Positions 24,027 through 31,282 of a stretch of DNA of 64,000 bases are shown here, piece by piece. The translations under genes and the position numbers were made by a program. This DNA is from Rhodocyclaceae bacterium (GTDB lineage: Bacteria > Pseudomonadota > Gammaproteobacteria > Burkholderiales > Rhodocyclaceae). The DNA is taken from positions 1 through 64,000 of the forward strand of contig JAQTNK010000020.1 in NCBI GenBank assembly GCA_028713915.1. The letters are read 5' to 3'. The notes under the pieces are model-generated. The model searched no databases, was not told the DNA's origin, and was given only the letters and a program-made list of their open reading frames with translations. The stretch's first letter is position 1. Each line of letters starts with the position of its first letter.

Positions 24027-24947
<921 letters not shown>

Positions 24948-25037: not shown

Positions 25038-25946
25038 ATGACGGCAGTTCTTCAAGGCAAGGCGAATGTCGCCGCGGCCGCGGAAGCCGACAAGGGATCG
25101 GCACTTTGTCGCAGTACCGACAATGACGGCGCGGCGCGGCCGCCGAGTTTGCCGAGATGGGCGCGCCTGCCGATCAATCGCTGCAATCTTCCCGCCGTCA
25201 TACTCGGCAGCGTCACCTTCCAGCGCCATCCCACCGACCTGCTGCTGGACGGCGTCGCCGAGTTGCACGCCGATTTGTTTCGCCGCCTCGACCGCATCGA
25301 TGCCGGCGCGGAACGCGGTGCCGCTTTCCGCGATTACGTCGCCGTGCATTTCTGTCTCGACCAGCTCGAGGAGGCCGGCCTCACCGACGCTTCACAGCGC
25401 CGTGCCAAGGCCAACTGGATGCGCGCGCTGCGCGGCTGGAGTTTCGATGCGGACGGCCGCGAAGGCGCCGTGCTCAAGGGCTGGGTCGAGTCTCGCTTCG
25501 GCCTGCTGCCGCGCTTCCACGGCGAACCCCTGCGCGACTTCGACGGTCCCGCCTACCGGCGCTACCAGGAAATGCGCGCCGCCGGCATCGCCGGCACAAA
25601 TGCCCTGGAAGGCCAGCTCGACCTACTCTATGCGTACTGCCAGTATGAGTTTCGCCGCAACGTCCCGGCCTGCCCCACCATCGAACTGTTCCGCGGCATC
25701 AACCGTATCGGCGACCACGAGGTGCTGCCCGGCGACGGCGGCCGCCAGGTCGTCCTCTTCAACAACCTCGCCTCCTTCACCGGCTCGCGCGAACGCGCCG
25801 GCGAGTTCGGCGACTACATCCTGTCGACGCGCGTGCCGACGGCCAAGATCTTCTTCCATTGCGGGCTGCTGCCCGGCGTGCTCAAGGGTGAAGACGAATT
25901 CCTCGTCGTCGGCGGGGCTTACGAGGTCGACATCAAGACCATTTGA
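25038..25946 (+). CDS. draT: NAD(+)-dinitrogen-reductase ADP-D-ribosyltransferase
   Basis: LPINRCNLPAVILGSVTFQRHPTDLLLDGVAELHADLF...TIELFRGINRIGDHEVL...VLFNNLASFTGSRERAGEFGDYILSTRVPTAKIFFHCGLLPGVLKGEDEFLVVGGAYEV. In-frame TTG at 25149 is an alternative start. Confidence 0.92.
   Translation: MTAVLQGKANVAAAAEADKGSALCRSTDNDGAARPPSLPRWARLPINRCNLPAVILGSVTFQRHPTDLLLDGVAELHADLFRRLDRIDAGAERGAAFRDYVAVHFCLDQLEEAGLTDASQRRAKANWMRALRGWSFDADGREGAVLKGWVESRFGLLPRFHGEPLRDFDGPAYRRYQEMRAAGIAGTNALEGQLDLLYAYCQYEFRRNVPACPTIELFRGINRIGDHEVLPGDGGRQVVLFNNLASFTGSRERAGEFGDYILSTRVPTAKIFFHCGLLPGVLKGEDEFLVVGGAYEVDIKTI
25107..25122 (-). promoter_or_regulatory. NifA UAS of nifH (overlaps annotated 5' end of draT)
   Basis: TGTCGCAGTACCGACA, ~99 bp upstream of the nifH -24 box. 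Confidence 0.8.
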
Positions 25947-26173: not shown

Positions 26174-26377
26174 ATGGCAACTGGTACCGTGAAGTGGTTC
26201 AACGACGCTAAGGGTTTCGGCTTCATCACCCCGGACGAAGGCGGCGACGACCTGTTCGCGCACTTCTCCGAAATTCAAGGCAGCGGCTTCAAGTCGCTCC
26301 AAGAAGGCCAGAAAGTCAGCTTCGAGATCAAGCAGGGCCCGAAGGGCAAGCAAGCTGCGACGATCAAGCCGCTGTAA
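26174..26377 (+). CDS. Cold shock protein (CspA family)
   Basis: [67 protein letters not shown]. Confidence 0.97.
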
Positions 26378-26395: not shown

Positions 26396-26428
26396 AAAAA
26401 ACCGCAGCCTCGGCTGCGGTTTTTTTTT
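26396..26428 (+). terminator. Rho-independent terminator of csp gene
   Basis: ACCGCAGCC-TC-GGCTGCGGT followed by T-run. Confidence 0.92.
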
Positions 26429-26501
26429 GCACGTCTCCCGCGCCTGCCATTCGGCACTGCGCCGCTGCGGCGGCCGTCTCACGCAGAGCCATCGATCGAT
26501 G

Positions 26502-26517
26502 TGTCGCACTCGCGACA
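26502..26517 (+). promoter_or_regulatory. NifA UAS upstream of SIR2-like gene
   Basis: TGTCGCACTCGCGACA: TGT-N10-ACA and full match to the extended TGTCGCA-N4-CGACA core shared with the nifH UAS. Confidence 0.75.
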
Positions 26518-26557
26518 ATGCCGGCGCTCGCGTCCCGCGGACACTGGCCTTGCGTGT

Positions 26558-26573
26558 CGGCCTGCTTCTTGCG
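26558..26573 (+). promoter_or_regulatory. Candidate sigma54 promoter of SIR2-like gene
   Basis: CGGCCT-GCTTC-TTGCG; GG-N10-GC exact but -24 hexamer degenerate; 41 bp after the UAS and 30 bp before ATG 26603. Confidence 0.6.
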
Positions 26574-26602
26574 AGCAGCGGCTTAGCCACCAAGGAGACG
26601 AC

Positions 26603-27454
26603 ATGATTGCCCCAGAACTGCGCACCGAGATCATCGCCGGCATCGAGGACGGCAGTATCGTGCCCTACCTCGGACCCGGCGTCCTGGCCGACGTCGTGTC
26701 GGCGAACGGCACGCCGATGCCGGCCACCAGCGAGCAACTGATACTCGGCCTGAACGGCGGCCGGCCGATGGCGCCCAAGCTGATGTACGAATTCCCGCGC
26801 GCGGCGATGAACGTCGAGCTCAAGCGCGGCCGCACCGCGGTGACGCGCTTTCTCGACGCCGCCTACGGCGCCGCCGACTGGAGCCGCGCCGCCGTGCACG
26901 ACTGGCTGCAGGCGCTTCGCCCGACTTATGTCATCGACATCAACCGCGACACGCAGCTGATCGACAGCTATGCCGGCACGCCGCACGTTCTCGTGCTCGG
27001 CTGCGCCCGCATCGGCGGCAGCGATTTCCGCTTCAAGCTCTACGCCTACGACGGCGTCGACTACACGGCCATCATGCCCGAGCAGGCCGCGCCGGACCAG
27101 CCGGTGCTATTCAAGCCGATGGGGGCGCCCAAGCCCCAATCTTCCTATATCGCCGCCGATGCCGATTATGTCGATTTCATCACCGAGCTGATGGGCGGCT
27201 TCGCCGTGCCGTCCTTCGTCAAGACGCTGCGCCGCCGCAAGCGCTATCTGCTGCTCGGCATGCGCCTTGACCGCGATACCGAACGCATGGTGCTGGCCGA
27301 CATGATCTATGGCGCGGCGGCACCGGCCGGCTGGGCCTTGATCGAAGAACCGACCGACAAGGAACGCCGCTTCCTCGCCAGGCTCAATATCGAGCTGATC
27401 GAGGCCAGCTGCGCCGACTTCATGGCCGGCACGAGCGCGACTGCTTGCGTTTGA
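26603..27454 (+). CDS. SIR2-like domain protein (predicted NAD-binding/hydrolysing)
   Basis: N-terminal IEDGSIVPYLGPGVLADV; VLFKPMGAPKPQSSYIAADADYVDFI; RRKRYLLLGMRLDRDTERMVL resembling SIR2-like family blocks; AAGGAGACGAC RBS before ATG. Confidence 0.65.
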   Translation: MIAPELRTEIIAGIEDGSIVPYLGPGVLADVVSANGTPMPATSEQLILGLNGGRPMAPKLMYEFPRAAMNVELKRGRTAVTRFLDAAYGAADWSRAAVHDWLQALRPTYVIDINRDTQLIDSYAGTPHVLVLGCARIGGSDFRFKLYAYDGVDYTAIMPEQAAPDQPVLFKPMGAPKPQSSYIAADADYVDFITELMGGFAVPSFVKTLRRRKRYLLLGMRLDRDTERMVLADMIYGAAAPAGWALIEEPTDKERRFLARLNIELIEASCADFMAGTSATACV

Positions 27455-27455
27455 G

Positions 27456-28379
27456 TCAGCCTGTCGCGCCCCCGGCCGCGCCGGCGGCGAGGGCGCGCGC
27501 CTGCGCCCGGCATTTCTCGCGCACGAGCGGATCGAGCCCCCTGAGCCAGCGCGCCGGAATCGCCTCGACGCCATAATGCGCACCGGCCAGCATGCCGGCA
27601 ATGGCCCCGGTCGTGTCGGCGTCGCCGCCGCGATTGGTCACGTCCACCAGGCAAGCCTCGAAACCATCCGTCTCCATCAACGCCTGCAGCACGGCCTGCA
27701 TGGTTTCGACGATCCAGCCGCTGGGATTTTCGCGGCGTCTGCCCTGGTAGCGAAATTCGGGACGCGCATCCAGGAGCGGCAGCAGACGACGCCGATAGAC
27801 GTTGCGCAGCGGCTCGCCGCGGACGAAATCCTGCACCGCCAGCGCCAGGAATTCGCTGGCGGCGTCCGAGGCGGCGTTGTGGTGGGTGACGTGCGCCTGG
27901 GCGCGCACGGCGCCGCGCACGGCGGCCTCGTCGCAGCCAAGGGTGCACAGCGCAACCGGCAGCACGCGCATGGCCGCGCCGTTGCCGGCATCGTTCGTCG
28001 ACGGCGGCGCGCACGGATTGCCGCTGCCGCGGAAGGTGATGAGATTGCGCCGCACCGTATTGCCGATGTCGATGGGCTTGGCGCGCATCCACGCATCGAA
28101 AGCGTGGGCGCAGGAAAGCGGCTTCACCGCGCCGCCGCCCGCCAGGATCGACGCGCCCAAGGCCAGCGACATCGTCGTGTCGTCGGTGACCTGGCCGGGC
28201 TTGAGGCGCAGCCAGCCGCCACCGCAGATCTCGCGATGGATGCCGTACCGGCTGCGGATCTCGCGCGCCGTGAGGAACTCGACCGTCGCGCCGAGGGCGT
28301 CGCCGATGGCGAGTCCGAGATACGCGGCCTCGGCACGCGCGATCAGCTCATCGGCTCGAGCGACAGCCTCGGGTGTCAT
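27456..28379 (-). CDS. draG: ADP-ribosyl-[dinitrogen reductase] hydrolase
   Basis: AAYLGLAIGDALGATVEFLTAREIRSRYGIHREICGGGWLRLKPGQVTDDTTMSLALG...; VTNRGGDADTTGAIAGMLAGAHYG. Confidence 0.93.
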   Translation of the reverse strand: MTPEAVARADELIARAEAAYLGLAIGDALGATVEFLTAREIRSRYGIHREICGGGWLRLKPGQVTDDTTMSLALGASILAGGGAVKPLSCAHAFDAWMRAKPIDIGNTVRRNLITFRGSGNPCAPPSTNDAGNGAAMRVLPVALCTLGCDEAAVRGAVRAQAHVTHHNAASDAASEFLALAVQDFVRGEPLRNVYRRRLLPLLDARPEFRYQGRRRENPSGWIVETMQAVLQALMETDGFEACLVDVTNRGGDADTTGAIAGMLAGAHYGVEAIPARWLRGLDPLVREKCRAQARALAAGAAGGATG

Positions 28380-28436
28380 CGAACTTTCCGCGCGCAACGA
28401 GCCAACTAGTCGCCGCCCGCGCGAGGGGAAGGGCCG

Positions 28437-31055: not shown

Positions 31056-31071
31056 AGCAACGGCCGTGCCA
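31056..31071 (-). promoter_or_regulatory. sigma54 -24/-12 promoter of nifB operon
   Basis: Minus strand TGGCAC-GGCCG-TTGCT: consensus. Confidence 0.88.
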
Positions 31072-31134: not shown

Positions 31135-31150
31135 TGTCGCAAATCGCACA
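31135..31150 (-). promoter_or_regulatory. NifA UAS of nifB
   Basis: Minus strand TGTGCGATTTGCGACA (plus TGTCGCAAATCGCACA), 64 bp upstream of -24. Confidence 0.8.
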
Positions 31151-31282
31151 GTGCGGCGGCGGCGCGATGTGATGAAGGCGACAGCGCTTGTCATGTCGTT
31201 CCCAGATCGATGTCTGCTGCCCTATGAATATCCAGACACGATACTATTCGCACCTGATTCGTCAGCTAGCGGGGAGACTCTG

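Follow-up and report, generated by a model that had tools for sequence, protein, structure and literature searches.

The open reading frame at positions 26603 to 27454, located between draT and draG in the 64,000-nucleotide stretch of Rhodocyclaceae DNA analysed here (hereafter the window), is, by strong inference, the orthologue of pnfA, a gene named in 2010 in Pseudomonas stutzeri A1501 (PST1325; PMC2820453). It is probable that pnfA is an accessory, diazotroph-specific nif gene which is driven by NifA and sigma54, is not linked to the DraT/DraG system, and encodes a non-catalytic protein of SIR2 fold that keeps nitrogenase active in respiration. The original prediction of a possible new component of nitrogenase post-translational control holds for the role in nitrogen fixation but not for a part in the DraT/DraG system, nor for the novelty, as the gene was named in 2010 and NifA dependence is likewise published for a SIR2 protein of the R. 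capsulatus nif cluster (PMC6925177). The incomplete sirtuin catalytic pair across PnfA is new here, and the missing catalytic His, the draT independence and the hemerythrin context are additions to a known family. Our analysis itself shows the family assignment, the promoter, the diazotroph specificity, the draT independence, the incomplete catalytic pair and the hemerythrin neighbourhood; from these we infer ligand binding, the absence of catalysis and a protective mechanism. The features of the locus are as follows.

24027..24923, minus strand: nifH, divergent from draT (TIGR01287 match at 24087-24911)
25038..25946, plus strand: draT, ORF as listed (PF07357, E=1.8e-96, domain from residue 46)
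26174..26377, plus strand: csp, encoding a cold-shock protein (PF00313, E=1.2e-30)
26402..26428, plus strand: csp terminator, CCGCAGCCTCGGCTGCGG followed by T9 (read from the sequence)
26502..26517, plus strand: predicted NifA upstream activating sequence (UAS) TGTCGCACTCGCGACA, TGT-N10-ACA (conserved among homologues)
26558..26573, plus strand: predicted sigma54 -24/-12 element CGGCCTGCTTCTTGCG, separated from the UAS by 40 bp (read from the sequence)
26592-26598: ribosome-binding site AAGGAGA, ahead of the ATG start of pnfA at 26603
26603..27454, plus strand: pnfA orthologue, SIR2_2-fold protein of 283 aa (Pfam PF13289, E=5.9e-8, and fold match)
26660..26686, plus strand: codons for VPYLGPGVL (residues 20-28), G-x-G loop of the SIR2 fold
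26936..26950, plus strand: codons for DINRD (residues 112-116), counterpart of sirtuin TTNxD; N114 is the retained catalytic Asn
27110..27124, plus strand: codons for FKPMG (residues 170-174), counterpart of the sirtuin K-x-HG loop; Met173 replaces the catalytic His
27456..28397, minus strand: draG, convergent with pnfA (TIGR02662, 363.6 bits, cut-off 337)

Downstream of the divergent nifH, pnfA follows draT and csp and precedes the convergent draG, and the profile matches bear out the earlier placement of the ORF between draT (5') and draG (convergent, 3'). The strong csp terminator proposed upstream of it is also there, as a hairpin visible in the sequence at 26402-26428; an automated terminator scan gave a minus-strand reading only. 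Outside the window, csp was seen between draT and pnfA in just two of the loci fetched, those of the closest relatives (L001, 4063-4263; L002, 1164-1364). The nifH UAS, at 25107, falls within the listed draT ORF, and therefore the true draT start is probably downstream of the listed one; the DRAT domain starts near 25173. A longer pnfA frame from a GTG at 26501 was rejected: it overlaps the UAS and the promoter, and the ribosome-binding site serves the ATG (26603), not this GTG.

The orthology is drawn from the published description of the A1501 gene and from synteny rather than from an alignment with the A1501 sequence. In A1501, PnfA is a 31.7 kDa protein encoded divergently from nifH behind TGT-N10-ACA and -24/-12 sites, its expression depends on NifA and RpoN as measured by qRT-PCR, and it is 54-55% identical to proteins of D. 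aromatica and Azoarcus BH72, being found only in diazotrophs (PMC2820453). The gene adjoining nifH, PST_1325, has been annotated as 'SIR2 family protein' (PMC11332353). The window gene shares with it the size, the nifH linkage, the TGT-N10-ACA and -24/-12 promoter, the diazotroph restriction and the SIR2 annotation. The surroundings differ, since the A1501 genome has neither draT nor draG (PMC2820453), whereas in the window draT and csp stand between nifH and pnfA and draG is convergent downstream. MAGs and isolates of Dechloromonas and Azonexus encode homologues 61-66% identical to the window protein; wherever the contig is long enough, these genes are seen to belong to nif clusters that include nifH, draT or draG.

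The phenotype known from A1501 is informative if, as we presume, the window gene is functionally equivalent. A non-polar pnfA mutant retained 23% nitrogenase activity under microaerobic conditions (0.5% O2) and was complemented, with nifH mRNA unchanged; anaerobically it showed no defect without nitrate and a strong defect with nitrate (PMC2820453).

The UAS and the -24/-12 element both lie at the positions given for them earlier. Judged from the window alone, the promoter of the ORF is only suggestive: TGT-N10-ACA occurs 9 times in the 64 kb against 3.6 expected, and CGGCCTGCTTCTTGCG fits the sigma54 consensus at 8/12 positions, falling outside the list of sites with at most two mismatches. 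The homologues carry the case further. A TGT-N10-ACA is present within 400 bp upstream in 88/94 of them, with about 5.5 expected from shuffles, and a sigma54 site scoring at least 9/12 in 82/94 (about 8 expected), usually some 45-55 bp ahead of the start codon. L001 and L002 share the layout of the window gene: the UAS is at -101 in all three, and the sigma54 element is at -44 in the two relatives (CGGCCTGCTTCTTGCA) and at -45 in the window, where CGGCCTGCTTCTTGCG is one base away from the element of both. Azoarcus azo0536 likewise has both RpoN and NifA sites. Since the UAS and the sigma54 site recur upstream of most of the 94 homologues, the NifA/sigma54 promoter proposed earlier is conserved and very probably functional. 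Elsewhere in the window, the region upstream of nifB carries tandem TGT-N10-ACA motifs (31135-31150 and 31168-31183) and a perfect sigma54 site (31056-31071).

The SIR2-like nature of the protein was upheld by profile search and structure prediction. The Pfam SIR2_2 profile (PF13289) scored 33.3 bits over residues 159-266, above the gathering cut-off of 24.5, and the AlphaFold2 model of the 283-aa protein (mean pLDDT 86.3, pTM 0.88) matched best the SIR2 domain of DSR2 (E 2.1e-9, TMq ~0.62) and also that of KomC. A sequence search of solved structures gave no credible relative of PnfA. DSR2 and KomC are NADase defence proteins, and their SIR2 domains resemble PnfA in overall fold (TMq ~0.6); however, identity is about 15%, and PnfA consists of one domain that stands alone and is encoded in nif clusters. 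Over 27 homologues (alignment A1) the mean column identity was 74%, with P21, Y22, G24 and L28 invariant.

Beside the subfamily that includes the window gene (subfamily 1), there is a second nif-linked PnfA subfamily (L101-L109, L123-L130, L155 and L156), about 27-30% identical and often located in nifB operons near nifT. Its loci, such as those on R. etli pRetIE4771b and the Methylococcus plasmid, share with the window gene the SIR2_2 domain and the nif-cluster location; they differ from it in having only ~30% identity, Trp for the catalytic Asn, and a position after nifT or in nifB operons, not beside nifH. Three proteins in the literature probably belong here, placed by annotation and not by alignment: Rcc03262 of the R. 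capsulatus nif cluster, which is NifA-dependent and missing from the nifA mutant proteome (PMC6925177), the SIR2-like msi351 of M. loti, within the nifB operon (PMC3538637), and ZMO1821 of the Zymomonas mobilis nif cluster, in a genome without draT and draG (PMC8600466, PMC8594446). The NifA dependence of Rcc03262 and the induction of ZMO1821 under N2 fixation resemble the nitrogen-fixation regulation of pnfA.

The operon contexts of subfamily 2 bear on a reading in which PnfA, without catalysis and independently of any nucleotide, helps to assemble or stabilise NifH, NifDK or an FeS protein. Its members stand in nifB-fdx-nifT operons (after nifT in R. etli) and within the nifB operons of Methylococcus and of another genome (G207), as does msi351, which would suit such a factor. 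However, the A1501 mutant had normal activity when anaerobic without nitrate (PMC2820453), and so assembly as such is unimpaired; we regard this explanation as rather unlikely.

The residues expected to carry out sirtuin chemistry were compared by a MAFFT alignment with canonical SIR2_2 proteins plus the fold match, on which the residue equivalence rests. Where the canonical proteins have TTNxD and K-L-HG, subfamily 1 aligned with D-I-N-R-D and F-K-P-M-G. All 103 of the 103 scored sequences of this subfamily have the Asn, with N114 invariant, and Met or Leu at the His site. The GAGxS loop is changed to LGPGVL in the window protein, a point against the proposed NAD(H) binding. In subfamily 2 the Asn site is occupied by Trp (16 sequences), and the other site by Leu, Trp, Tyr, Thr or sometimes His, which is kept by some alphaproteobacterial members. 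Asn and His together were absent from every PnfA sequence scored, four being not cleanly scorable, and none of the invariant or almost invariant positions was a Cys that could form the zinc-binding Cys4 of CobB-type deacylases. With part of the catalytic pair missing from all scored members, canonical NADase or deacylase activity of PnfA is unlikely, as is the action on ADP-ribose products that had been suggested for it. It must be taken into account that the loss of the canonical His leaves room for other chemistry.

These residues weigh against the activity suggested for ZMO1821, a sirtuin-type deacylation of nitrogenase or NifA. The SIR2 fold would agree with such an enzyme, and in Zymomonas N2 fixation is accompanied by acetylation of NifA and of nitrogenase proteins and by induction of ZMO1821 (PMC8600466). 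However, the His is missing at the HG position in every scored subfamily-1 member, no conserved Cys is available for the zinc site, and the nearest folds are NADase-type defence sirtuins and not CobB, so that we find deacylation improbable.

The distribution of PnfA was surveyed in a class sample (n=369) and a phylum sample (n=399) of genomes. In the former, 28/28 PnfA genomes were nifH-positive, two of them by fragments, as opposed to 5/341 of the others (Fisher p ~3e-37). The phylum sample held 17 PnfA genomes, 16/17 with nifH and the seventeenth with nifB on the same contig as pnfA and a distant nifD-profile match elsewhere; nifHDK are probably missing from that assembly (G428). Over both samples, 43/43 pnfA genomes had nif genes. 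As to draT, it was present in 17/42 genomes with PnfA and nifH versus 25/30 genomes having nifH but no PnfA (Fisher p=0.0003); after collapsing to families, the counts were 16/33 and 10/14 (p=0.2). PnfA tracks nitrogenase; as to draT, the family-collapsed difference is not significant, and the cautious reading is that there is no positive association. In one genome without draT (G138, locus L132) pnfA sits next to nifH and is transcribed away from it. In the phylum sample, three families (f211, f215 and f208) were nifH-positive, almost all with draT, and had no PnfA, a pattern hinting at alternative strategies.

The original prediction had made the protein a possible component of nitrogenase post-translational control that could set the NAD supply or act on ADP-ribose products; as a part of the DraT/DraG switch it might also modulate NifH ADP-ribosylation. 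Its position between draT and draG speaks for this, many Rhodocyclaceae loci have draT upstream and/or draG downstream, and in Azoarcus draT, azo0536 and dcrH1 have been proposed as one transcript (PMC8467165). However, the neighbourhood survey found co-occurrence with nifH and no positive link with draT, which was in fact less frequent in PnfA genomes by the uncollapsed count; the A1501 phenotype arises without draT and draG, which Zymomonas also does not have; and the catalytic pair is incomplete. DraT/DraG and PnfA are genomic neighbours in the window, but they have unrelated folds and independent distributions, and having pnfA flanked by draT and draG is a local trait of certain nif clusters in the Rhodocyclaceae. 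A part in the DraT/DraG switch is thus quite improbable. An ETF- or UspA-like electron-delivering protein, proposed by the 2010 authors from 31% local identity (PMC2820453), is very unlikely, as profile and fold both say SIR2. Least credible of all is an NAD+-hydrolysing effector, the defence- or ammonia-switch-related NADase of the earlier claim: the closest solved folds are indeed the DSR2 and KomC SIR2 domains, but DSR2 requires the catalytic His (H171, mutated in solved entries) that PnfA does not have, PADLOC models and phage records gave no match to the window gene, there is no adjacent effector or sensor domain, the family is confined to nif genomes, and losing pnfA costs nitrogenase activity instead of saving NAD.

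The accessory, non-catalytic role of PnfA in respiring cells is the reading that we favour, and the genes downstream of pnfA give it a context. In 46/87 loci, L036, L047, L072, L080, L131 and L132 among them, the 4 kb downstream include a co-directional bacteriohemerythrin gene (PF01814); this holds also in distant lineages, for example in Rhodobium orientis and a Gallionellaceae MAG. Together with the O2/nitrate phenotype, this neighbourhood suggests protection of nitrogenase during O2 or nitrate respiration. The window has draG and no hemerythrin gene after pnfA, so that the partner need not be encoded alongside.

In the mechanism we propose, NifA and sigma54 would switch on pnfA together with nifHDK. 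Since the fold has lost the catalytic His, its Rossmann fold would most likely bind, but not turn over, a protein partner or a nucleotide, for instance NAD(H) or ADP-ribose, and PnfA would most likely serve as a non-catalytic sensor or stabilising partner through which nitrogenase stays active during O2 or nitrate respiration, acting beside O2- or NO-handling proteins such as bacteriohemerythrin. The O2/nitrate phenotype could instead be an electron-supply effect, which the 2010 authors also considered (PMC2820453). A more specific version, in which a repurposed dead sirtuin senses an NAD(H)- or ADP-ribose-type ligand and, with bacteriohemerythrin, protects or gates nitrogenase during O2 or nitrate respiration, is offered tentatively, as a possibility. 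If true, sensing by PnfA would be a second layer of nitrogenase control, independent of DraT/DraG.

Nitrogenase is oxygen-sensitive, and its survival in cells that respire has long been puzzling and stands in the way of bringing nitrogen fixation to crops. PnfA is widespread in proteobacterial diazotrophs, and its SIR2 annotation points to the wrong assay (deacetylase or NADase); its lack of the His, its draT independence and its hemerythrin partner lead to a testable hypothesis of non-catalytic protection or sensing.

Other genes recur downstream of pnfA in the same 87 loci. A family of 185-aa proteins without a Pfam match is encoded co-directionally within 4 kb in 40/87, the hemerythrin gene often coming after it; a Rieske protein was found in 13 loci, a rhodanese-ankyrin protein in 6 and an Fe-SOD in 2.
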